Origin: Massilia sp. WG5
Lineage (GTDB): Bacteria; Pseudomonadota; Gammaproteobacteria; Burkholderiales; Burkholderiaceae_D
DNA length: 64,000 nucleotides
Assembly (NCBI RefSeq): GCF_001412595.2
Contig: NZ_CP012640.2
Location: 1,488,001 to 1,552,000 of the forward strand
Direction of reading: 5' to 3'
The first letter of the stretch is position 1; each line of letters opens with the position of its first letter. The translations under genes were made by a program, and so were the position numbers. The notes under the pieces are model-generated. The model was given only the letters and a program-made list of their open reading frames with translations. It did not search any database and was not told the DNA's origin. Of this stretch, positions 7,076 through 18,843 are shown piece by piece.

Positions 7076-7723
7076 TCAGAAGCCGAGGCTGTCGAGCAGG
7101 TCGTCGACCTGGCCCTGGTCGGCCACCACTTCGGCATCGCCTTCAGGCTTGATCTGCGGGCCGTTCATTAAGCTGTTACTGAGCAGACCAGTGTCGAACT
7201 CGCGCTTGACCTCGGCCGGCGCGAAATCGACCAGCACCTGGACCAGTTGCTTTTCGAGATTCTGGGCGATGCCGGTGATGCGCTTGATTACCTGGCCGGT
7301 CAGGTCCTGGAAGTCCTGGGCCATCATGATGTCCATCAGGTGGCCGCGGGTCGCCACCGCGGCGCTGCGCGATACGGCCAGGCTGGCGATGGTCTTCTCG
7401 GCCAGCGCGCGCCATTCCGGACTGCCCTCGCCGCTGTCCAGCAGCGTTTGCCAGGAACGCGTGAGCTCCACCGCCGCGCCGTCGATCCCTTCCTGCAGCG
7501 GGCTGGCGGCATCGGTGGCGTCCAGCACCCGCTTGGCAGCCTGTTCCGACAGGCGCGCCACGTAGTCGAGACGGTCGCGCGCATCCGGGATGTCGCTGGC
7601 GGCTTTCTCGATCAGCTTGTCCAGGCCCAGACCGCGCAGGTTCTCGTGCAACGCGCGGGTCATATGCCCGATCCGGCTCAGGACCTCGTCGTGCGAGCCC
7701 GAGTCGGGAAGTGGCTCGGTCAT
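7076..7723 (-). CDS. cheZ: CheY-P phosphatase CheZ
   Basis: Speeds dephosphorylation of CheY-P and so ends the motor-switching signal. It is a helical protein of 215 residues. The catalytic segment AQDFQDLTGQV carries the Asp140 and Gln144 pair (DxxxQ), equivalent to Asp143/Gln147 of the E. coli enzyme. The C-terminus QVDDLLDSLGF is the conserved CheY-docking helix, joined by a variable linker. It begins two bases after the cheY stop, so the pair is co-translated. Confidence 0.95.
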   Translation of the reverse strand: MTEPLPDSGSHDEVLSRIGHMTRALHENLRGLGLDKLIEKAASDIPDARDRLDYVARLSEQAAKRVLDATDAASPLQEGIDGAAVELTRSWQTLLDSGEGSPEWRALAEKTIASLAVSRSAAVATRGHLMDIMMAQDFQDLTGQVIKRITGIAQNLEKQLVQVLVDFAPAEVKREFDTGLLSNSLMNGPQIKPEGDAEVVADQGQVDDLLDSLGF

Positions 7724-7725
7724 TT

Positions 7726-8121
7726 TCAGGCTGCCTTTTCCATCTTTTCGAAAATCTTGTTCAGCTTTTCGTCCAGCGTGGCGGCGGTGAAAGGCTTCAC
7801 GACATAGCCGTTGGCGCCCGCTTGCGCGGCCGCGATGATGTTTTCCTTCTTCGCTTCGGCGGTCACCATCAGCACCGGAAGCTTGGCCAGTGCGGGATCG
7901 GCACGGATGTTCTGCAGCATGGTCAGACCGTCCATGTTCGGCATATTCCAGTCCGAGACCACGAAGTCGAACTGTTCGCTGCGCAGTTTGGCCAATGCCA
8001 TCACGCCATCTTCGGCTTCGTCGACGTTGGCGTAACCCAGTTCCTTCAACAGATTCCGCACGATGCGACGCATCGTCGAGAAATCGTCAACAACTAAAAA
8101 ACGCATCTTTGGATCAGCCAT
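7726..8121 (-). CDS. cheY: Chemotaxis response regulator CheY (copy next to cheZ)
   Basis: A single receiver domain of 131 residues that carries the signal from CheA to the flagellar switch FliM. The acidic pocket VDDFST, phospho-acceptor Asp57 in [11 protein letters not shown], Thr in MVTAEA and Lys in VVKPFT are all present. [16 protein letters not shown] is the classic CheY helix, so this copy looks like the true motor-binding CheY. It is followed by cheZ (2-base gap). A second, divergent CheY lies at 13631-13996. A 125-base gap separates it from cheB upstream. Confidence 0.95.
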
Positions 8122-8246
8122 GAAATACTCCGTTGTTACTCTGTATATATGTATTAGTGGGACTTCGACTCTGCGAAAGCAGGCCTAAGCATAGCATTTT
8201 TGTTGCTCTACGGCGATAAAACCGGGGCTAAAGGGGTGCGAACGGA

Positions 8247-9323
8247 TCAAACGCGCAACGCCCGGCTGCCCTGCGTTGCCAGATGACCAAGTACCATGCC
8301 CGGCAAGGCCGTCAGTGCGCCCACTTCATGGGCGGCGCCGATGGCGATCGCCTCGCGCGGCATGCCGAACACGACGCAGGATGCCTCGTCCTGGGCGAAG
8401 TTGGTGGCGCCGGCATTGCGCATTTCCAGCATGCCTTGGGCGCCGTCCTTGCCCATCCCGGTCAGGATCACCCCGACCGCATTCTTGCCGGCCGCCTGGG
8501 CCGCCGAGCGGAACAGCACGTCCACCGAAGGCCGGTGGCGGTTGACCGGCTCGGTCTGCTCGATCTTCGTCATGTAGTTGGCGCCGGAGCGGGACAACAG
8601 CAAATGGGAGTGGCCCGGTGCGATATAGGCGTGGCCGGGCAGCACGCGCTCGTTGCCCTGCGCTTCGCTGACGCTGATCCGGCACAGCGAATCGAGGCGC
8701 CTGGCAAAGGAGCTGGTGAAGCCTTCCGGCATGTGCTGGGCGATCAGGATGCCCGGGCAGTCGGACGGCATCTGCATCAGGAATTCGCGGATCGCCTCGG
8801 TGCCGCCGGTGGAGGCGCCGATGATGATCAGCTTTTCCGACGAGGTCAGCGGGCTGCGCAACTGCGGCAGCTGGGCGCCGGGCGGCGGCGCGTGCAGGGT
8901 ACGCGGCTTGATGCGGGCGCGCGCGGCGCCGCGGATCTTGTCGGCGATGAGCTCCGTGTACTCGCGCATCCCGGTCTGGATCGAGATCTTCGGCTTGGTG
9001 ACGAAGTCCACCGCGCCCAGTTCCAGCGCGCGCATGGTGATCTCGGAGCCGCGTTCGGTCAGCGAGGACACCATCAGCACCGGCATCGGGCGCAGGCGCA
9101 TCAGCTTTTCGAGGAAATCGAGGCCGTCCATCTTCGGCATCTCGACGTCGAGCGTCAGCACGTCGGGATTGGTGCGCTTGATCAGCTCGCGCGCGACGAG
9201 GGGATCGGGCGCCACGCCGACGACTTCCATGTCCGGCTGCGAATTCACGATCTCGGTCATCACGCTGCGGATCAGCGCGGAATCGTCGACGATCGCCACT
9301 TTGATCTTGTTCGTGGAGTGCAT
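8247..9323 (-). CDS. cheB: Chemotaxis methylesterase/deamidase CheB
   Basis: Removes methyl groups from, and deamidates, chemoreceptors when phosphorylated by CheA. It is a 358-residue protein with a receiver domain (Asp59 in [11 protein letters not shown]) and a C-terminal CheB esterase domain. The catalytic Ser-His-Asp are visible as [19 protein letters not shown] and [10 protein letters not shown]. It follows cheD with a 14-base gap, in the usual cheR-cheD-cheB order. Confidence 0.97.
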
Positions 9324-9337
9324 GTTGTGCCCTTTCG

Positions 9338-9937
9338 TCAGAACAGGTCGATGTCGCCGCCGACCGGCGCGACCTTGAGGCGGCTGGCGTAGTCGAGCTC
9401 GCGCCTCGCCAGCGTGTCGTTTTGGGTTTGCATCAGCTTCTTGACCAGCACCTTGCCGGTGCGCGGGAAGAAGTACACCTTGCGCGGATAGATGTCGTTC
9501 AGGTCTTCGGCCAGCACCGGGATGCGCTCGGTCTTCAGGAACTGCGTCACGAAGGCCGCGTTGCGCTCGCCGACATTCATGGCCGAGAAGCCGCGCAGCA
9601 CGGCGCCGCCGCCGAACACCTTCGCTTCCAGATGCTCGCGGCGCGCGCCGGCCTTCAGCAAATCGTTGATCAGCACTTCCATCGCATAGGTCCCGTAGCG
9701 CATCGAGGCCGACACCGGGTTGCCGGGGTCGCCGCCGTCCGGCAGCATGAAGTGGTTCATGCCGCCCAGGCCCTTGACGCGGTCGCGGATGCAGGCCGAG
9801 ACGCAGGAACCCAGCACCGTCACGATCAGCATCTCCTTGCCGGTGTAGTAGTACTCGCCCGGCAGGATCTTGGCGGCTTCGCAGTCGAAGGTGCGGTCGT
9901 AATAGACGTTGGTGGCGAAATGGCTGTTGGTATCCAT
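9338..9937 (-). CDS. cheD: Chemoreceptor glutamine deamidase CheD
   Basis: Deamidates receptor glutamines and in some bacteria binds CheC. Of 199 residues, the catalytic Cys in [12 protein letters not shown] and His in GGMNHFMLP are present, followed by a Thr-containing region YGTYAME. The open frame continues upstream, but the family sequence begins at the ATG at 9937 ([10 protein letters not shown]). The tail ends GGDIDLF; a near copy ends the CheZ-like protein of this operon. Located between cheR (11 bases) and cheB. Confidence 0.94.
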
Positions 9938-9948
9938 GGCGGTGCCTG

Positions 9949-10809
9949 TTAACTCAACTCGTACACCGTCTTGCCGCGCAGGCGCAGCGAGTCGGACACA
10001 TACAGGAAGTTTTCGGAATGCCCCGCGAACAGCAGGGCCTCCGGCTTCATCAGGGGCACGAAGCGCGACAGGATCTTGCGCTGGGTGGCCTTGTCGAAGT
10101 AGATCATCACGTTGCGGCAGAAGATCGCGTCGAACGGTCCGCGCAGGTCCCAGCCGTCGGCCAGCAGGTTGAGCTGGCGGAAGGTGACCAGGTTGCGCAG
10201 TTCGGGGCGCACGCGCACCAGGCCCTCCTGCGCGCCCTTCCCCTTCAGGAAGAAGCGGCGCAGGCGCCCGGCCTCGAGCTTTTCGACCCGTTCGATCGGA
10301 TAGACGCCGGCGCCGGCGGTGGCCAGCACGTTGGTGTCGATGTCGGTCGCGATGATGGACACCGGCGGGGTGAGCGTATCGAACGCCTCGCACATGGTCA
10401 TCGCGATCGAGTAGGGCTCCTCGCCGGTCGAGCTGGCCGAACACCAGATCGTCAACGGCGTGCCCGGATGCTGGCGGCGCGCCTTGAGCGCATGCTCGGC
10501 CAGCAGCGGGAAGTGGTGGGCCTCGCGGAAGAAGGAGGTCAGGTTGGTGGTCAGGGCATTCGTGAACGCCTCCCACTCCTGCCCGGCGGGGCCACTGAGG
10601 CGTCCCGCTTCGAGAGCGTCGAGATAGCGCGAAAAGGATTCGATGCCGGTGGCGCGCAGGCGGCGCGCGAGCCGGCTGTAGACCATTTCCTGCTTGCTGT
10701 CGGCCAGCGAAATGCCGGCGCGCTGGTAGATCAGGCCGCGCACGCGCTCGAAGTCGGCGCGCGTGAACTCGAATTCCTTGCCAGTTTCCTGCTTGGTATG
10801 AAGCGGCAC
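9949..10809 (-). CDS. cheR: Chemotaxis protein methyltransferase CheR
   Basis: Methylates receptor glutamates using S-adenosylmethionine. The 286-residue protein has the helical N-terminal CheR domain ([16 protein letters not shown]) and a SAM-binding domain with [17 protein letters not shown] and [15 protein letters not shown]-terminal KTVYELS ends at normal length. No receptor gene lies between cheW and cheR, unlike in enteric bacteria, so receptors are encoded elsewhere. Confidence 0.96.
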
Positions 10810-10894
10810 GTTATTACCTTTGGGTGTTTGTCGATCCTGCGGACCCGTTCGACCGGGTCCGCTACTGCTATCCCTGCGCCGCGGTTTCCGTTCC

Positions 10895-11392
10895 TTACGC
10901 TACCATCTTGTCGATCAGGCCCATCTCGCTGGACGACATCAGGCGGTCGATGTCGATCAGGATCAGCATGCGCTCGTCGACGGTGCCCAGGCCCATCAGG
11001 TAGTCGGAATTGAATGCGGTGCCCATTTCCGGCGCCGGCTTGATCTGGTCCGGCGTCAGGGTGGTGACGTCCGACACGCTGTCCACGACCATGCCCATGA
11101 TGCGGCCGCCGATGTTCAGGATGATCACGACGGTGAACTGGTCGTAGGTGGGGGTGCCGAGGTTGAACTTGATGCGCATGTCGACCACCGGGATGATGAT
11201 GCCACGCAGGTTGATCACGCCTTTGATGAATTCGGGGGCGTTGGCGATGCGGGTCACGGCTTCGTAGCCGCGGATCTCCTGCACCTTCAGGATGTCGATC
11301 CCGTACTCCTCGGAGCCGAGGGTGAAGGCCAGGTATTCGCTGCCGCTGCCGTCGCGCGCGTCGGCCGGTTTGGTGGTCTGTTGAATGGACAT
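10895..11392 (-). CDS. cheW: Chemotaxis coupling protein CheW
   Basis: Couples receptors to CheA in the signalling array. A single CheW domain of 165 residues, with [25 protein letters not shown] near the start and [12 protein letters not shown] in the second half. Thirty bases downstream of cheA. A second, shorter CheW-type protein is encoded far away at 50812-51291. Confidence 0.96.
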
Positions 11393-11422
11393 GTCGGTTC
11401 CTGATTCAGAAAGTTTTGAGTT

Positions 11423-13606
11423 TTATAAAACGACGGTATCGTCCGTCAGCTGACGCGACGAGCGCAGCAGCGCAGCCACGTCCAGGATCAACGCCACGCC
11501 GCCATCGCCGAGGATGGTGGCGCCGGAGATCCCGGCCACCTTGCGGTAGTTCGATTCCAGGTTCTTCACCACCACCTGCTGCTGGCCCACCAGTTCGTCG
11601 ACGAACAGCGCGGCCTTGCGTCCTTCGGTCTCGAGGATAACCAGGATGCCTTCGGATGGATCGGTATAGCGCGGCTCGATGTTGAACATCTGGTACAGCG
11701 GCACCAGCGGCAGGTATTCGCCGCGCACCTTGACCACGCGGCCCTGGCCGGCGATCTCCTTGACCTCGTGCTTCGCCGGCTGCAGCGACTCGACCACGAA
11801 GCCGAGCGGCAGGATGTAGATCTCGTCGCCGCAGCGGATCGACATGCCGTCCAGGATCGCCAGCGTCAGCGGCAGCGAGATCAGGATCGTGGTCCCGAAG
11901 CCCTTCGCCGACCGGATGTCGATGGTCCCGCCCATCTGCGTGATATTGCGCTTGACGACGTCCATGCCGACCCCGCGGCCGGACACGTCGGTGACGATTT
12001 CGGCGGTCGAGAAGCCCGGCGCGAAGATCAGCTGCCAGACCTCGGCGTCGCTCATGTTCTCGGAGACCGGCAAGCCGTTCTGCCGCGCCTTGGCCAGGAT
12101 CCGTTCGCGATTCAGGCCGCCGCCGTCGTCGGCCACTTCGATCACGATGTTGCCGCCCTGGTGGGCTGCGGACAGGAACAGGCGGCCCGATTCGGATTTG
12201 CCGGCAGCCACGCGGGCGGCCGGCATCTCGATGCCGTGGTCGATCGAGTTCCTGACCAGGTGGGTCAGTGGATCGACGATGCGTTCGATCAGGCCCTTGT
12301 CCAGTTCCGTCGCCGCGCCGTTGGTGATGAAGTCGACCTTCTTGCCCAGCTTGGAGGCCAGGTCGCGCACCATGCGCGGGAAGCGCGAGAACACGAAGTC
12401 CATCGGCATCATGCGGATCGACATCACGGCTTCCTGCAGGTCGCGGGTATTGCGGGTCAGCTGCGACACCGAAGCGAGCAGGCGCTGGTGGACCATCGGG
12501 TCCAGGCCGTCGCTGCGCTGCTCGATCATGGCCTGGGTGATCACCAGTTCGCCGACCAGGTTGATCAGCTGGTCGACCTTCTCGATCGAGACCCGGATCG
12601 AGCCCGATTCGGCGTGCGCGTGGGCGGCGCCGTCGGCCTTCTTGACGGCCTTCTTCTCGGCCGCGGCTTCGGTCACCTCGAGCGCTTCCGGACGACTGGA
12701 AGCAATCTCAGGGCTTTTTCGCGAGGCCATGGCCTCGCCTTCCGCCACGATGCCGGCCTCGCGGCGGATCTGCTCGATCGGCTGGAAGAAGCCGTAGCCG
12801 CGCTCGTCGTCGGTCTGCTCCGGCTGCGCGCCGTCGAGCGCTTCGTTCGGGTCGAAGAAGCCGTAGCCCTGCTCGTCCTCGATGCGGGCGCGCTCGGCGG
12901 CCTCCAGGGCGCGCTGCTCGGGCGTGAGCGGCGGCGCTTCGAAGATCTTCAGGTCATCCGGATCCATCACGAAGGAGCAGATCGCGACGATGTCGTCCAG
13001 CCCTTCGTGGGTCATGATGATGAGCGCGCTGCGTCCGCCGGACAATGGGGTGACCGAGACGCGGCCCAGCAGGCCAAGTTCGTCGACCAGGGCGTTCACG
13101 TCGCGCTGCGGGAGATCCGGCAGCTCGATCTTGTAGCGGTGCGCGCCTTCGCGCACTTCCTGCTTCTGCTCGGCGTGCAGGAAGGACGGCACGGTCGGCT
13201 GGTGCGCGCCGACGACGACGCCCTCGGACAGGTCGTGCAGCATCATGCGCACGTTGGCGACCGCTTCCTGGTCGACGCTGGCGCCGTTGCGGTGGCCGTC
13301 GAGCTGCATCTTGAGGATGTCCTTGGCGGCCAGGAAGGCGTCGACGTGCTGCGCCGTGAGGGACATCTCACCCTTGCGGATGCGGTCCAGCAGCGACTCC
13401 AGCACGTGGGTCACTTCGCTCATGTCGTTCAGGCCGAAGGTCGAGGCCCCGCCCTTGATCGAATGGGCGGTGCGGAAGATCGCATTCAGGTCTTCCGCGT
13501 CCGGTGCGGCGATATCGACGGCCAGCAGCAGACGCTCCTTTTCGGCGAGGAGCTCTTCCGCCTCGTCGAAAAAGACCTGGTAGAACTGGCTGATGTCGAT
13601 GGTCAT
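11423..13606 (-). CDS. cheA: Chemotaxis histidine kinase CheA
   Basis: Central kinase of chemotaxis; phosphorylates CheY and CheB. The 727 residues hold a P1 phosphotransfer domain with His48 in RTAHSIKGGAST, a CheY/CheB-binding region, a dimerisation segment, the ATPase (LVRNSIDHGIE, EVADDGGGLN, GRGVGMDVVKRN) and a C-terminal CheW-like domain. Between P2 and P3 there is a long acidic linker with two near-identical GYGFF motifs about 22 residues apart. The gene sits between cheY (24 bases) and cheW (30 bases). Confidence 0.97.
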   Translation of the reverse strand: MTIDISQFYQVFFDEAEELLAEKERLLLAVDIAAPDAEDLNAIFRTAHSIKGGASTFGLNDMSEVTHVLESLLDRIRKGEMSLTAQHVDAFLAAKDILKMQLDGHRNGASVDQEAVANVRMMLHDLSEGVVVGAHQPTVPSFLHAEQKQEVREGAHRYKIELPDLPQRDVNALVDELGLLGRVSVTPLSGGRSALIIMTHEGLDDIVAICSFVMDPDDLKIFEAPPLTPEQRALEAAERARIEDEQGYGFFDPNEALDGAQPEQTDDERGYGFFQPIEQIRREAGIVAEGEAMASRKSPEIASSRPEALEVTEAAAEKKAVKKADGAAHAHAESGSIRVSIEKVDQLINLVGELVITQAMIEQRSDGLDPMVHQRLLASVSQLTRNTRDLQEAVMSIRMMPMDFVFSRFPRMVRDLASKLGKKVDFITNGAATELDKGLIERIVDPLTHLVRNSIDHGIEMPAARVAAGKSESGRLFLSAAHQGGNIVIEVADDGGGLNRERILAKARQNGLPVSENMSDAEVWQLIFAPGFSTAEIVTDVSGRGVGMDVVKRNITQMGGTIDIRSAKGFGTTILISLPLTLAILDGMSIRCGDEIYILPLGFVVESLQPAKHEVKEIAGQGRVVKVRGEYLPLVPLYQMFNIEPRYTDPSEGILVILETEGRKAALFVDELVGQQQVVVKNLESNYRKVAGISGATILGDGGVALILDVAALLRSSRQLTDDTVVL

Positions 13607-13630
13607 GATGTGTCGCTTGTCGCTTTCGGC

Positions 13631-13996
13631 TTAGCCGATGACTTTCTTGACCACCTCGATCAGGCGCTGCGGGTCGAAAGGCTTGACCAGCCAGCCATTG
13701 GCGCCGGCGGCGCGGCCTTTCGATTTCATCTCGTCCGAGGATTCGGTGGTGAGCATCAGGATCGGCACCTTGGCATAGGTCGGCAGGCTGCGCAGCGACT
13801 TGATCAGCGTGAGGCCATCCATTTTCGGCATGTTCTGGTCGGTCAGGACCAGGTCGACGGTCTGCTGCTTCGCCTTTTCCAGGCCATCCTGGCCATCGAC
13901 GGCCTCCACCACCTGGTAGCCGGCGGCTTTCAGGCTGAACGCCACCATCTGGCGCAGGGAACTGGAATCGTCAACCGCAAGAATCGTTTTTGCCAT
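13631..13996 (-). CDS. cheY: Chemotaxis response regulator (second CheY, next to cheA)
   Basis: A 121-residue single receiver domain. Conserved VDDSSS, Asp53 in LTDQNMPKMDG, Thr in MLTTES and Lys in WLVKPF show it can be phosphorylated. The DSSSLRQMVAFSLKAAGYQVVEAVDG pattern is that of the CheY placed directly upstream of cheA in many beta- and gammaproteobacteria, distinct from the motor-type CheY at 7726. It may act as a phosphate sink or serve another output. A palindromic repeat separates it from the CheZ-like gene upstream. Confidence 0.93.
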   Translation of the reverse strand: MAKTILAVDDSSSLRQMVAFSLKAAGYQVVEAVDGQDGLEKAKQQTVDLVLTDQNMPKMDGLTLIKSLRSLPTYAKVPILMLTTESSDEMKSKGRAAGANGWLVKPFDPQRLIEVVKKVIG

Positions 13997-14012
13997 TTTA
14001 TGTTTGCTCCCT

Positions 14013-14052
14013 GGGGTCAGAGTCCGGTTCTTCTTTTGGGGACTCTGACCCC
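14013..14052. repeat. Palindromic intergenic repeat, GGGGTCAGAGTCC type
   Basis: Arms 14013-14025 and 14040-14052 are perfect 13-base inverted repeats with a 14-base loop. A closely related palindrome lies at 18008-18067. This pair appears to belong to a dispersed palindromic family; both copies sit in short gaps of the motility block. Confidence 0.85.
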
Positions 14053-14064
14053 GGTTTTAGTTGG

Positions 14065-14613
14065 TTAGAATAATTCGACGTCGCCACTCTCGAGATGCCG
14101 CTGCTCCACCGACTTCCTCAGCATGCTGCGCAGCTCGAGCGACTGGATCGCCAGCGCCATGCTGACCTTGCCCAGCCGGTCGACGATCTCCTCGCTGTGG
14201 CTGTCGGGCGCGATGTCGGCGCCGTGCTCGCTGAGCGTGGTCAGGAATTCGCGCAGTCCGCTCACGCGGCGCAGCGTACGGTCGAGCAGCTGGCTGGTCA
14301 TGTCCTGGAACTGCATGCTGGTGATCGCCGTGTTCACGTGCTGGCCGATCTCGCCCGACATGCCGGTCAGCTTTTCGCTTTCCTCGGCCGACGGCGCCTC
14401 GCCCGCGAGCAGGCGGTTGATGCTCTGCTGGCGCGCGTCGACCGCCTGGTGGATCGCCATGAAGCTGGAGGTCAGCTTTTCGACGGCCTCCTCGAGCAGC
14501 AGCGTGGTCTGCACCAGGTCGGTCTCGACCTCGTTCAGGTGACGACGGCCGTGGTCGGACACACCGGACAGCAGGCGCTTGACGTGCGACCCTAAAATCT
14601 TTTTTCTTGTCAT
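14065..14613 (-). CDS. CheZ-like chemotaxis protein (putative second CheY phosphatase)
   Basis: A 182-residue, almost wholly helical protein with no signal peptide. The central segment SMQFQDMTSQLLDRT contains Asp104 and Gln108 in the same DxxxQ arrangement as CheZ (QDFQDLTGQVIKR). The last residues, SGDVELF, resemble the tail of CheD in this operon and recall the short CheY-docking tail of CheZ. Long helices before and after the motif fit a CheZ-type four-helix bundle, though overall similarity to CheZ is low. It lies between motB and the second cheY. The function is inferred from motif and context; it could instead be a structural or scaffold protein. Confidence 0.72.
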   Translation of the reverse strand: MTRKKILGSHVKRLLSGVSDHGRRHLNEVETDLVQTTLLLEEAVEKLTSSFMAIHQAVDARQQSINRLLAGEAPSAEESEKLTGMSGEIGQHVNTAITSMQFQDMTSQLLDRTLRRVSGLREFLTTLSEHGADIAPDSHSEEIVDRLGKVSMALAIQSLELRSMLRKSVEQRHLESGDVELF

Positions 14614-14640
14614 TGAGTTCTCCAGAACTATCCGGGCGCC

Positions 14641-15615
14641 CTACTTCGCCGTCGCCTGCTCCGGCTCCGCCAGCCCGCCGCCGGTCGCAGAAGCCACCGC
14701 CTTGGCGGCGCCGTCGGCATCGTCCGGGACGTCGAGCGCATTGCTGCCGCTGCCGCCGTCGCGCAGCACTGCTTCCTCGGTGCGCTTGTTCATCACCAGG
14801 ATGCTGATCCGGCGGTTGACCGGGTTGAACGGATCCTTGCGGTCCAGGTGGTTGGCGGCGGCCAGGCCGACCACGCGCAGCACCTTGTCGTCGGCCAGGC
14901 CGCCGCGCACCATTTCGCGGCGCGAGGCGTTGGCGCGGTCGGCCGACAGTTCCCAGTTCGTGTAGCCGCTGGCGGTCATGTACGGCGTCGAATCGGTATG
15001 GCCCGACAGGCTCAGCTTGTTCGGCACATCGTTCAGCACCAGCGCCAGCACGTCGAGGATATCGCGAGTGTAAGGCTGCAGCTCGGCCTTGGCGCTCTCG
15101 AACATCGGACGGTTCTTCTCGTCGACGATCTGGATGCGCAGCCCTTCGCTGGTGACGTCGAGCAGCAGCTGGTTCTTGTACTTCTTCAGCTGCGGATTGG
15201 CTTCGATGGTCGATTCGATCTTCTGCTTCAACCTGGCCAGGCGCTCGGCTTCCTCGTGTTCGAGGGCGGCGCGCGCGGCCTTCAGGTCGTAGGTCTTCTT
15301 GTCGGCCGGGGTATCGCCCTTCTTGACCTGGCCGTTACGGCGCGTCAGGTCCTGGCCGCCGCCCTGCAGGATCGAGGAGCTGTCGCCGCTGCCGGAACCG
15401 CCCTGCATCGCGACCTTCAGGGGGGTCTTGAAGTAGTTGGCGATGCCTTCCATGTCGCCCTTGGTGGTCGAGCCGAGCAGCCACATGAGCAGGAAGAAGG
15501 CCATCATCGCCGTCACGAAGTCGGCGTACGCGATCTTCCAGGCGCCGCCATGATGGCCATGGCCGCCCTTCTTGATGCGCTTGACGATAATCGGCCGCTG
15601 GCCTTCATCAGCCAT
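14641..15615 (-). CDS. motB: Flagellar motor stator protein MotB
   Basis: Stator subunit that anchors MotA to peptidoglycan and conducts protons. At 324 residues, it has a short cytoplasmic start, one membrane segment with the essential Asp32 in AYADFVTAMMAFFLLMWLL, a periplasmic linker with a plug region (GIANYFKTPLK) and an OmpA-like peptidoglycan-binding domain (LSLSGHTDSTPY, NWELSADRANASRREM). Its ATG overlaps the motA stop by one base (TAATG), so translation is coupled. Confidence 0.97.
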   Translation of the reverse strand: MADEGQRPIIVKRIKKGGHGHHGGAWKIAYADFVTAMMAFFLLMWLLGSTTKGDMEGIANYFKTPLKVAMQGGSGSGDSSSILQGGGQDLTRRNGQVKKGDTPADKKTYDLKAARAALEHEEAERLARLKQKIESTIEANPQLKKYKNQLLLDVTSEGLRIQIVDEKNRPMFESAKAELQPYTRDILDVLALVLNDVPNKLSLSGHTDSTPYMTASGYTNWELSADRANASRREMVRGGLADDKVLRVVGLAAANHLDRKDPFNPVNRRISILVMNKRTEEAVLRDGGSGSNALDVPDDADGAAKAVASATGGGLAEPEQATAK

Positions 15616-16475
15616 TACTTGCTCTTCGCTTTCTTGATGTGGTCTTCGAGTTCGGCGAAGGTCGGACGCTCGGTCGAATACAGGACCTTGCGGCCGAATT
15701 CAACCGCCAGCGCCGGCGCATAACCGTTCAGGCTGGCCAGCAGCGTGACTTTCACGGTCTGGAACATCTTGGTCGACTCCTCCAGTTTCTGTTCCAGCAG
15801 GCTGGCCAGCGGGCCGACGAAGCCGTAGGCCAGCAGGATGCCAAGGAAGGTGCCGACCAGCGCGTGCGCGATCAGCATGCCCAGCTCGGCCGGCGGCGCG
15901 CCGACCGATTCCATGGTGTGCACCACGCCCATCACGGCGGCGACGATACCGAAGGCCGGCAGGCCGTCGCCCAGCTTGGCGATGCACTGCGCCGGGACGT
16001 GGCCCTCATGATGGTGGGTCTCGATCTCGTTGTCCATCAGGTTTTCGATCTGGAAGGCATCCATGTTGCCGGAAACCATCAGGCGCAGGTAATCGGTAAT
16101 GAATTCGACAATATGGTGATCCGCCAGCACTACCGGGTACTTCGAGAACACCGGGCTCTGCTCCGGGCTTTCGATATCGCCCTCGATCGACATCAGGCCT
16201 TCCTTGCGGACCTTGGACAGCACGTCGAACATCAGCGACATCAGCTCCATGTACATCTCGCGCGTGTACCTGGAACCCTTGAACAGGGTCGGCAGCGCCT
16301 TCATGGTTGCCTTGACCGCCTTCGGGGTATTACCGACGAAGAATGCGCCGAGCGCGGCGCCGGCAATCATGAGCACTTCCAGCGGCTGCATGAGCGCGGC
16401 CACATGGCCGCCGCTCAGGACGAAACCGCCGATCACCGACGCGACGACTATGACGTAACCAACTATGACAAACAC
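15615..16475 (-). CDS. motA: Flagellar motor stator protein MotA
   Basis: Proton-channel stator subunit. The protein has 286 residues from a GTG start (VFVIVGYVIVV), preferred over an upstream ATG because GGGAG precedes it closely and MotA proteins begin at this point. Four membrane segments are visible, two near the N-terminus and two around PAFGIVAAVMGVVHTM and LGILLAYGFVGPLA, with a large charged cytoplasmic loop between. The family signature and the conserved prolines are present. Motors with this Asp32-MotB pair are usually proton driven. Confidence 0.96.
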   Translation of the reverse strand: MFVIVGYVIVVASVIGGFVLSGGHVAALMQPLEVLMIAGAALGAFFVGNTPKAVKATMKALPTLFKGSRYTREMYMELMSLMFDVLSKVRKEGLMSIEGDIESPEQSPVFSKYPVVLADHHIVEFITDYLRLMVSGNMDAFQIENLMDNEIETHHHEGHVPAQCIAKLGDGLPAFGIVAAVMGVVHTMESVGAPPAELGMLIAHALVGTFLGILLAYGFVGPLASLLEQKLEESTKMFQTVKVTLLASLNGYAPALAVEFGRKVLYSTERPTFAELEDHIKKAKSK

Positions 16476-16585
16476 GGGACTCCCGATCTGTGAAGCCGGG
16501 GACATGCCCGGTTGAAATATTTACGTAGGGAACTAGATTAGCTTGAGAATGGCCTACGGGCAAGTAAAAGTCCCCGTGATGTGGC

Positions 16586-17386
16586 TCAAAAGTGCCAAAT
16601 GTGGAGAATTTTTCTGCTATCGGTAGTTACAATGCGCCGATCCGGCTCACGCTCGACAATGTCGAATTCGTAACTGACAAGCACACTGCCGGGGCGCATC
16701 TCGGCCTCCGCCTTGCGCCACAGGCCACCCATGGCGGCCGGCGACAGGTAGGCGAACACCACATCGTAATTACCGAAATTGAGGCTTTCGTAGTCGCCGC
16801 GCAGAAAACGGGCGCGGCTGCCGGTCGCGCGCGCACGCAGGCTGCTGGCCAGCCAGGGCAAGGGCGCGAGTTCGATCCCGCTGAGCTCGCAATCGGGACG
16901 GCGCCGGGCCAGGTCCAGCACCAGCCCGCCCAGGCCGCTGCCGATATCGACGATGCGCAGCGGGCGGTCAGGCGGCAACTGGCGCGCGACCGCCTCCCAC
17001 ACGCGCCGCCCGGACGGGTAGTAGGGCACCTGGGTGCGGAAGGTCGACCAATATACGAGCAGCAGGAACAGGAACACCGCCAGGAAGGCGGCCGGCGGCA
17101 GCGCCAGCGCATCGGCGCCCTGCCTTGCCAGCAGCAGGATTGGCGGAAACAGGAACTGGATCGCTCGCCACCAGCTCGCCAGCCCGGCGCGCCACGCGAG
17201 CAGCGCCGCCCAGGCGCCCTGCACCAGGGCGACGCCCAGCCAGGATTGCATGGCGGAGGATGGGAACAGGCCGGCGCGCGCCAGCAGCCAGACCGCGCCG
17301 AGCGTCAAGGGAAATGCGAGGATTTGCAGTAGCAGCGCCCGGACGGCGGGCGCGCGCCAGATGCGGCGCGGGGAAGTCGGACTCAC
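16586..17386 (-). CDS. Class I SAM-dependent methyltransferase with N-terminal membrane segments
   Basis: Predicted methyltransferase; substrate unknown. The N-terminal half has three or four hydrophobic stretches (LLLQILAFPLTLGAVWLLA, FPPILLLA, FLAVFLFLLLVYW) and the C-terminal half has a SAM-binding site, motif I IVDIGSGLGGLVLDLA with a later acidic residue in SGIEL and NYDVVFAYLSP. The start is uncertain: GTG 17386 lies just after flhC, without a strong ribosome site. The position between flhC and motA, in the same direction, is notable. It could modify a membrane or envelope component, but nothing in the sequence names a target. Confidence 0.75.
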   Translation of the reverse strand: MSPTSPRRIWRAPAVRALLLQILAFPLTLGAVWLLARAGLFPSSAMQSWLGVALVQGAWAALLAWRAGLASWWRAIQFLFPPILLLARQGADALALPPAAFLAVFLFLLLVYWSTFRTQVPYYPSGRRVWEAVARQLPPDRPLRIVDIGSGLGGLVLDLARRRPDCELSGIELAPLPWLASSLRARATGSRARFLRGDYESLNFGNYDVVFAYLSPAAMGGLWRKAEAEMRPGSVLVSYEFDIVEREPDRRIVTTDSRKILHIWHF

Positions 17387-17409
17387 GCGCGGATCAGGTC
17401 CGGACCGGC

Positions 17410-17958
17410 TCAGGCGGCGGCGAGCGCGGCGGCGTCCTTGGCCTTGCGGGTCTTGCCGGCTCGCGAAGGCATATGGCACAGGCCGCACTGGTAATCGTTG
17501 TTCAGGTCGAGCGAATTGACCACGTACTTGCCCTTGCATTTCGAGCAAGGCGCCAGCACCAGCATGCCGCCGTGGAAGAAACGGACCAGGGTCCAGGCGC
17601 GGGTCAGCGACAGCAGCGGCTCTTCGCCCGGCTCCGGCGGCATCTGTTCGAGGTAGAGCTTGTAGGCTTTCATCACAGCCTGGATACCGGTAGCGCCGGC
17701 GTGCTCAACCAGGAATTTATAGATATTGATGTACAGCGAGGAGTGGATGTTCGGCTGCCAGGTCAGGAACCAGTCGGTCGAAAACGGCAGCATGCCCTTC
17801 GGCGGCGACACGCCCTTCAGTTCCTTGTACAGCTTGAGCAGGCGCTCGCGCGACAGCGAGACTTCGCTCTCCAGCAGTTGCAGGCGGGCGCCAAGCTGGA
17901 TCAGTTCGATGGCCAGCTGGATTTCCTGGGCTTCCGAGACGACGCTTTTCTTGCTCAT
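17410..17958 (-). CDS. flhC: Flagellar transcriptional activator FlhC
   Basis: Forms the FlhD4C2 complex that activates class II flagellar promoters. It is a 182-residue protein with the family helix region (AIELIQLGARLQLLESEVSLSRERLLKLYKEL in part) and four zinc-binding cysteines in CSKCKGKYV and YQCGLCHMP. An alanine-rich tail ends the protein. It follows flhD with a repeat in the gap. This is the master regulator pair at the head of the motility block. Confidence 0.96.
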   Translation of the reverse strand: MSKKSVVSEAQEIQLAIELIQLGARLQLLESEVSLSRERLLKLYKELKGVSPPKGMLPFSTDWFLTWQPNIHSSLYINIYKFLVEHAGATGIQAVMKAYKLYLEQMPPEPGEEPLLSLTRAWTLVRFFHGGMLVLAPCSKCKGKYVVNSLDLNNDYQCGLCHMPSRAGKTRKAKDAAALAAA

Positions 17959-18007
17959 GATTCACTCACTCCGACAACACGCAAACGCTAGGGACCTGAC
18001 TTAAATC

Positions 18008-18067
18008 AAACCGGGGTCAGACTCCAGTTTTGGGCAATTTCCAAAATCGGGAGTCTGACCCCGGTTT
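18008..18067. repeat. Palindromic intergenic repeat, GGGGTCAGACTCC type
   Basis: Outer arms 18008-18025 and 18050-18067 are perfect 18-base inverted repeats; an inner 6-bp stem TTTTGG/CCAAAA lies at 18028-18033 and 18041-18046. It lies between flhD and flhC. Its core differs from the 14013 copy at one base. Confidence 0.85.
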
Positions 18068-18078
18068 TTGGAAATTTC

Positions 18079-18396
18079 TTAAGCGATCTCTTCGGCAGGC
18101 TGGCCGGCCATCAGGATGGCCGCGTGCGACTGCGCCAGGGCGCGGTCCTTGCTGTGGCTGGTGAGCATCGACAGGATGGCGGTGTCGTCGAAGCGGAAAC
18201 GGGCCAGCATCATGTTGCCGCCGGCGAGCTTCAGGATCTGGGCATTGCTCATGCCTTCGATCAGGTCCGCGATGTCGGCCGAGATGCCGAGACGGAAGAT
18301 CGCGGTGACCTTGTCGGCACGAATCATCTGCTGAGCAAGCATCAGGTAGCTCAGGTTCGCATCACGAATTTCAGCCATCATGTCGTTCGCAGTCAT
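18079..18396 (-). CDS. flhD: Flagellar transcriptional activator FlhD
   Basis: Partner of FlhC in the class I flagellar master regulator. The protein has 105 residues from MTANDMMAEIRDANLSYLML, with the conserved helix ADKVTAIFRLGISADIADLI. I choose ATG 18396 because GGAGAG precedes it by six bases; two further upstream ATGs (18402, 18429) would leave no room for a ribosome site or add unsupported sequence. It is preceded by a long leader and by three sigma-28-like promoters. Confidence 0.95.
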   Translation of the reverse strand: MTANDMMAEIRDANLSYLMLAQQMIRADKVTAIFRLGISADIADLIEGMSNAQILKLAGGNMMLARFRFDDTAILSMLTSHSKDRALAQSHAAILMAGQPAEEIA

Positions 18397-18650
18397 TTCC
18401 ATCTCTCCGTGTGATCTATTCGCAGGCATTTAAGTTGTGTTGCCGTTGAGATAGATTCTGACTGTGAGGAAACTTTTCGTATATTGGAGAGAGTCTGGAT
18501 TTTTCGTCCGGCAAAGACGAAGGCAACCCGTAGGGGTTTGTCTGACAAACCCTCCCGGATTGGGGTCGCGCCCCTATGAAAACAGGCGGATGAAGATGAT
18601 GGTGCTGCGGGGCTTTTCGGGCCCGTCGACGCCGACAGGAATCTGCGTCT
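18397..18650 (-). other. Long untranslated leader of flhD
   Basis: About 250 bases without a convincing gene lie between the nearest predicted start site and flhD. They contain a GC-balanced hairpin (GGGTTTG near 18534-18540 with CAAACCC near 18546-18552). I see no known riboswitch. E. coli flhDC also has a long regulated leader, so RNA-level control is plausible. Confidence 0.4.
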
Positions 18651-18657
18651 GTGTTGG

Positions 18658-18684
18658 TTAACGTCAACCAAGTGAGGAACTTTA
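18658..18684 (-). promoter_or_regulatory. Sigma-28 (FliA)-like promoter P1, nearest flhD
   Basis: Minus-strand -35 TAAAGTTC (18677-18684), 11-base spacer, -10 GACGTTAA (18658-18665). Against the consensus TAAAGTTT-N11-GCCGATAA this is 7/8 and 6/8. An AT-rich tract lies upstream of the -35. Confidence 0.62.
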
Positions 18685-18741
18685 GGGTCGAATCGAAATA
18701 TTTTTCGATTTTTTTACTACCCTTCCCGCTCCTACAAACCG

Positions 18742-18768
18742 TTATCGGATGGCTTTTCGCAAACTTTA
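18742..18768 (-). promoter_or_regulatory. Sigma-28 (FliA)-like promoter P2
   Basis: Minus-strand -35 TAAAGTTT (18761-18768), a perfect match, an 11-base spacer and -10 TCCGATAA (18742-18749), 7/8. The AT-rich block AAAATTTTTTCGA immediately upstream could act as an UP element. Confidence 0.78.
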
Positions 18769-18816
18769 GGGCTGCCTGCAAAATTTTTTCGACCCAATCC
18801 CGGTCATCTGGATGGG

Positions 18817-18843
18817 TTATCGGACGGGTTTTGGGGAACTTTA
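18817..18843 (-). promoter_or_regulatory. Sigma-28 (FliA)-like promoter P3, farthest from flhD
   Basis: Minus-strand -35 TAAAGTTC (18836-18843), 11-base spacer, -10 TCCGATAA (18817-18824). It again has an AT-rich block upstream (about 18850-18866). P3, P2 and P1 are spaced 75 and 84 bases apart. Confidence 0.75.

Follow-up and report, generated by a model that had tools for sequence, protein, structure and literature searches.

Upstream of the flagellar master operon flhDC, Massilia sp. WG5 carries three tandem predicted promoters of the FliA (sigma-28) type, each with an UP-like element. With moderate confidence we propose that these class III promoters drive flhDC together with the mot-che genes behind it, which would make a direct loop from FliA to FlhDC. 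As read from the sequence, the identity of the sites as promoters and their conservation are well supported. Our window, the whole stretch of DNA that was analysed, comprised 64 kb of the 6.2 Mb genome. The sites, with their scores under a matrix trained on flgM promoters, and the UP-like elements, with their agreement with the consensus AAAWWTWTTTTNNNAAA, are located as follows.

18817 to 18843, minus strand: distal FliA-type promoter (predicted), 21.5 bits
18742 to 18768, minus strand: middle FliA-type promoter (predicted), 26.2 bits
18658 to 18684, minus strand: proximal FliA-type promoter (predicted), 21.9 bits
18848 to 18864, minus strand: UP-like element of the distal unit, 13 of 14 letters
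18773 to 18789, minus strand: UP-like element of the middle unit, 10 of 14 letters
18689 to 18705, minus strand: UP-like element of the proximal unit, 10 of 14 letters

An earlier note on this DNA had described three box pairs with 11-base spacers, and both their sequences and their coordinates proved exact on the minus strand. The distal site consists of the -35 box TAAAGTTC (18836-18843), the spacer CCCAAAACCCG and the -10 box TCCGATAA (18817-18824); the middle site of TAAAGTTT, GCGAAAAGCCA and TCCGATAA; and the proximal site of TAAAGTTC, CTCACTTGGTT and GACGTTAA, the last of which deviates from the consensus. With a spacer of 11 bp in each case, all sites fit TAAAGTTY-N11-NNCGWTAA, and they agree with the consensus (-35 box TAAAGTTT, spacer 11, -10 box GCCGATAA) at 14, 15 and 13 of 16 positions. 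Transcription from the proximal site would begin at about 18651. Within the 900 bases 5' of flhD, three sites on the flhD strand reached at least 12 of 16 with spacer 11, against a mean of 0.02 and a maximum of 1 in 1000 dinucleotide shuffles; the same interval held no site with spacers of 8-10 or 12-14 bases and none on the opposite strand. Across the 6.2 Mb genome, the strict pattern TAAAGTT-N14-CGWTA matched five times, always ahead of a flagellar gene: three times before flhD, once before flgM and once before an orphan fliT gene. Promoters of lower match quality, the probable flagellin promoter among them, escape this pattern. The reversed control pattern matched once.

The flgM gene encodes the anti-sigma factor and is a textbook target of FliA. 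In this genome its FliA-type site lies about 48 bases before flgM (PF04316). The flgM promoters of 24 same-genus genomes, this one included, all contain TAAAGTTT-N11, followed in 21 of the 24 by a GCCGWTAM -10 box, and begin 72-77 bases ahead of the flgM match. Since the flgM promoters show the same core, the motif belongs to FliA in this clade. Our scoring matrix was built from 25 distinct flgM promoters found at 27 loci, of which 24 belong to the genus and 3 to other families, and excluded the flhD sites; in the remaining window (128,000 positions on both strands) its top score was 14.8 bits. Together with conservation, register and strand, this independently trained matrix lends strong support to the earlier claim that promoters of the sigma-28 type head flhDC. 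Compared with the flgM sites, those at flhD and at the orphan fliT are slightly different, mostly having TAAAGTTC with CCC in front. At the best-scoring flagellin gene (L238, G000:C1:2150772-2151185) we noted a degenerate FliA match, TCAACTTT-N11-ACCGTTAC, with an AT-rich block upstream. This match agrees with the consensus at only 11 of 16 positions and scores 16.7 bits with the flgM-trained matrix; motif strength thus need not equal activity.

The AT-rich block that had been noticed ahead of each box pair is real: the 13, 10 and 10 matching letters compare with a mean of 2.85 over the minus strand of the window, the reference being the UP-element consensus AAAWWTWTTTTNNNAAA obtained by SELEX (PMC2412878). 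When 279 distinct site contexts were aligned, two A/T blocks emerged, of which the nearer follows the pattern AAAWWTWTTT at -21 to -12; beyond it come two or three free bases, an A-rich stretch at -9 to -4, and then CCC and TAAAGTTC. In the named loci described below, 138 of 204 flhD sites matched the UP consensus in a fixed register with at least 11 of 14 letters. The mean match was 11.2 for these 204 sites and 11.5 for 22 orphan fliT sites, against 4.9 for the flgM sites of the 24 same-genus loci, the only flgM set used for this comparison. The flgM promoters are without an UP-like element. Promoters of the flhD array and that of the orphan fliT thus make up a subclass, one that is expected to be strong. 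In B. subtilis, AT-rich sequence upstream of hag, fliD and motA boosts transcription, and hag is SigD-dependent according to a title in the reference list of the same report; the study saw no drop of hag, fliD and motA in its alpha-CTD mutant, however (PMC4495994). These sigma-D promoters share the upstream AT-rich element with the Massilia array, but they are single late-gene promoters, whereas in Massilia a tandem array stands ahead of the master regulator (PMC4495994).

Conservation of the boxes among close relatives, whose absence would have counted against the sites, was examined in 80 named loci (Massilia, Telluria, Duganella, Pseudoduganella, Rugamonas and others, one labelled Herbaspirillum) and in 60 loci belonging to additional genera of the family; some genomes may occur in both sets with different labels (L150 and L331, for example). 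Among the named loci, 79 contained a total of 207 sites with at least 12 of 16 matches, spacer 11 and the orientation of flhD, compared with 2 on the opposite strand, 1-8 for each other spacer, and a mean of 3.6 with a maximum of 9 in shuffles. The array was kept: every one of the 76 named Oxalobacteraceae loci holding both flhD and motA had, 5' of flhD, at least two sites that the flgM-trained matrix scored at 13 bits or higher, four named loci (L111, L129, L131, L139) and two family loci (L319, L338) without both genes having been left out. Across relatives the boxes stay constant while the sequence of the 11-bp spacer varies and the flanks diverge. At 11 of 16, a threshold that AT-rich chance matches also pass, all 80 named loci have at least two sites. 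In the 60 further loci, 46 had a site at 12/16, with 80 sites against 5 on the opposite strand. Nine loci from other families of the order, with FlhD identities of 44-61%, had no array; L088, with only 497 bases of upstream sequence, showed a single site, of 14/16, at -111, and L086, with 79% FlhD identity, had two good sites. Positions relative to flhD are counted from the start of the match, which can lie as much as 6 bases within the gene from the ATG.

The number of units varies. At 12/16, the named loci have two units (37 loci), three (35), four (7) or none (1), and 55 of 128 spacings between units fall at 74-78 bases, a few of the 12/16 matches probably being due to chance. In the window the units start 75 and 84 bases apart and are mutually 68-74% alike across 31 bases, which speaks for a repeated design and against a recent duplication event. 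What had been called a triplication is one state of an array that in named relatives mostly counts 2 to 4 units. From these sequences, soil bacteria of the Massilia group appear to place two to four strong FliA promoters ahead of flhDC.

The genes behind the array are codirectional on the minus strand, from flhD, flhC and a methyltransferase gene to motAB and che, and extend from 18396 down to 7076 according to open reading frames and Pfam.

18079 to 18396, minus strand: flhD (PF05247, E 1.3e-44; probable ATG at 18396)
17410 to 17958, minus strand: flhC (PF05280, E 5.6e-87)
16586 to 17398, minus strand: methyltransferase-domain protein in the interval between flhC and motA (PF13649; start codon uncertain)
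15615 to 16505, minus strand: motA (PF20560, PF01618)
7076 to 15615, minus strand: motB to cheZ (Pfam and open reading frames)

After motA the order is motB, a protein at 14065-14613, a cheY-like gene, cheA, cheW, cheR, cheD, cheB, a second cheY-like gene and cheZ. On the minus strand from 7076 to 15615 there is no strong FliA-type site, the best scoring 9.7 bits with the flgM-trained matrix at 11391-11417. Nor did any of the 76 named loci have a site of at least 13 bits in the 300 bases before motA, and 74 of the 76 lacked a 12/16 site in the whole interval from flhD to motA, the other two (L126, L138) having degenerate ones.

Elsewhere in the family a site before motA does occur. At a threshold of 13 bits, the 143 loci with FlhD identity of at least 69% divide into 108 with sites at flhD only, 23 with both, 9 with motA only and 3 with neither, so that 9 of the 12 relatives without flhD sites carry a site before motA. 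The three with neither belong to g29 and g65, where the upstream sequence is full, and g60, where it is shortened; the locus with shortened upstream sequence (L314) was counted as having neither and left out of the tree. In all seven g50 genomes a site lies some 110 bases ahead of motA, made up of TCAAGTTT or TTAAGTTT together with GCCGTAAA. Below 69% FlhD identity (10 loci), 7 had neither site, 2 motA only and 1 both, so the exchange is not general to every flhDC. Array strength and motA score were inversely related, with rho -0.48 over loci that are not independent, and weakly so over 30 group means in which the named set formed one group (rho -0.36, p 0.047). On a tree of FlhD, FlhC and MotA with 82 rows (66 family loci and 16 of the 76 named), the motA site switches state 9 times and the array, taken as two or more flhD sites, 11 times; correlated gain and loss of the two had no statistical support, with 3 independent pairs on supported branches.

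The earlier note had also suggested that the whole flhDC-motAB-che block is run as late genes. The score of only 9.7 bits for the best other site in the block and the motA sites of the nine array-less relatives argue for this reading, which does not exclude the loop, nor the loop it. The distribution of the two sites may reflect relocation of a promoter through a stage in which both were present. More tentatively, and with rather less confidence than we place in the loop, we suggest that in this one family a late-class mot-che promoter moved from motA to the master regulator and was multiplied there along with its UP elements, by which a linear hierarchy would have become directly self-sustaining.

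The loop that we favour would work as follows. A separate class I promoter would start the cascade. Once the hook-basal body is complete, FlgM would be exported and free FliA would transcribe the array, where the UP-like elements would serve the alpha subunit of RNA polymerase. Transcription through flhDC into mot-che would supply the motor and chemotaxis genes, which have no nearer strong FliA site, and would at the same time yield extra flhDC mRNA and a rise in FlhDC protein, closing a direct positive loop atop the class I promoter. The loop requires that flhD be translated from the FliA transcript. In the leader, two features precede the gene.

18523 to 18561, minus strand: leader hairpin with a conserved UUUGU..ACAAA stem, identified by covariation
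18437 to 18462, minus strand: nearly invariant block GTCAGAATCTATCTCAACGGCAACAC before flhD, identified by conservation

From the start placed at the proximal site to flhD, the leader would measure about 255 nt. This long distance and the conserved hairpin make translation of flhD from array RNA uncertain. In an alignment of 93 sequences, the hairpin showed 113 cells with compensatory changes against 44 in shuffles (not one of 500 reached 113); slid controls gave 27-63. The alignment retained 93 of 96 candidates, three with divergent FlhD (L237, L202, L184) having been dropped; because candidates were picked by a core match within 3 substitutions, conservation of the core partly reflects this selection. 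All 80 named loci carry the hairpin, as does the window; the wider family has it in part, with no core match within three substitutions in 17 of its 60 loci. The genome holds a single exact copy of the core, and Rfam gave no match in the window at the gathering score. A role in post-transcriptional control of flhDC is possible. We also considered the hairpin as a terminator and ruled this out because no U-run follows the stem. The block GTCAGAATCTATCTCAACGGCAACAC is a candidate class I promoter or regulator site. No sigma-70 -35/-10 hexamers were found on the minus strand between 17300 and 19000, a search that an activator-dependent promoter would escape.

The strongest rival to the loop is that the array serves merely as the late promoter of mot-che, its FliA transcript being translationally inert for flhD owing to the long, structured leader and giving little or no feedback. 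Inefficient translation of FliA from the class 3 transcript was reportedly described by Tanabe in 2011. In Salmonella, the class 3 transcript of fliA yields FliA protein inefficiently (PMC4173784), and in our data the covariation of the leader hairpin, a window leader that folds better than shuffles (z -3.55) and the motA site in 9 of 12 loci lacking flhD sites (FlhD at least 69%) are all consistent with such an inert transcript. Against it, folding predicts that the leader hides the flhD start only weakly, with values below those of shuffles in 27 of 41 loci (p 0.02; the loci were the window and every second named locus), and no hairpin core turned up in six loci from g56, g57 and g66, genera that bear the array. 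Moreover, more FlhDC is the simplest outcome of a promoter ahead of flhDC. On balance we judge an inert transcript unlikely, while giving it more weight than any other rival.

The sites might instead be used by a second FliA-like sigma factor, or by both factors, coupling two flagellar or motor systems. The FliA gene of the genome matches TIGR02479 with 280.5 bits (cut-off 189.6), and in the PDB it matches best the FliA chain of 6pmi, an E. coli structure. Two genes pass the FliA_WhiG family cut-off, L242 (G000:C1:2199006) and L243 (C1:4713570-4714199), and they are only 35% identical. That the flhD and orphan fliT sites look slightly unlike those of flgM, in the frequent TAAAGTTC and the CCC in front of it, would suit the second factor, C1:4713570-4714199; but the core motif is the same at flgM, and we hold its use of the array to be quite improbable.

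Still less probable, in our estimate, is that the array yields a FliA-dependent leader RNA or small RNA ending near the hairpin rather than flhD mRNA. A long conserved leader with a covarying hairpin would suit such a product, but the stem lacks the following U-run, and the interval between array and flhD holds no terminator-like site on the minus strand. The idea that the boxes are binding sites of another regulator that happen to resemble sigma-28 promoters scarcely deserves credence: the CCC ahead of the -35 box is indeed conserved beyond the FliA motif, but both boxes, the 11-bp spacer, the strand and the register of the UP element are all as expected of a promoter, and flgM independently gives the same core.

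The direct loop from FliA to FlhDC can be set beside known systems. Older work on Salmonella is said to have dealt with autogenous control of flhD. What is known in Salmonella is an indirect feedback on FlhD4C2 from FliA through FliZ and YdiV (PMC4173784, PMC5809477) and inhibition by FliT, which binds FlhD4C2 (PMC5809477). As in the feedback predicted for the array, a factor of a late step there feeds back positively on the master regulator; the Salmonella route is indirect, via FliZ and YdiV, whereas in Massilia it would consist of direct transcription of flhDC. By analogy with Salmonella, the orphan fliT could act as a brake in Massilia; of 23 same-genus genomes, 22 have a FliA-type site of at least 13 bits ahead of this gene, in most cases along with a good UP-like element. 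The E. coli cascade is described with flhDC as its only class 1 unit, at the top, and motAB-cheAW are transcribed from a FliA promoter located within flhC (PMC4183435). There too a FliA promoter serves mot-che genes downstream of flhDC, but it stands behind flhD, within flhC, so that flhDC is not under its control, whereas the Massilia sites lie ahead of flhD and are repeated. The Salmonella flhDC region resembles that of Massilia in having several promoters upstream, with six putative start sites; the parts of that report cited here make no mention of sigma-28 promoters ahead of flhDC (PMC3946378). Our survey of the literature, which covered titles and the beginnings of abstracts and reached subscription journals thinly, turned up no paper that describes FliA promoters ahead of flhDC, or flhDC control in Massilia or its kin.

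If a conserved sigma-28 array before flhDC does operate across the family, the order of the flagellar hierarchy would not be fixed, commitment to flagella could be latched by assembly itself, and a shift of a promoter inside a gene block could create a feedback loop in one step. The genera with a motA site only, with both sites and with the array only would form a natural series on how such loops arise.

Several minor observations concern the genes mentioned above. The protein at 14065-14613, between motB and the first cheY-like gene, is without a Pfam match. The orphan FliT-family gene (PF05400; L361) lies on the minus strand at G000:C1:4930151-4930447, and a second FliT match at C1:2155274-2155552. 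By eye, the second sigma gene L243 adjoins another motA-like gene. A relative of the methyltransferase-domain protein is present in 63 of the 67 family loci with FlhD identity of at least 69%. Finally, the gap between flhD and flhC contains, at 18005-18075, a REP-like inverted repeat, GGGGTCAGACTCC...GGAGTCTGACCCC, and similar repeats occur in 4 of the 12 relatives inspected.
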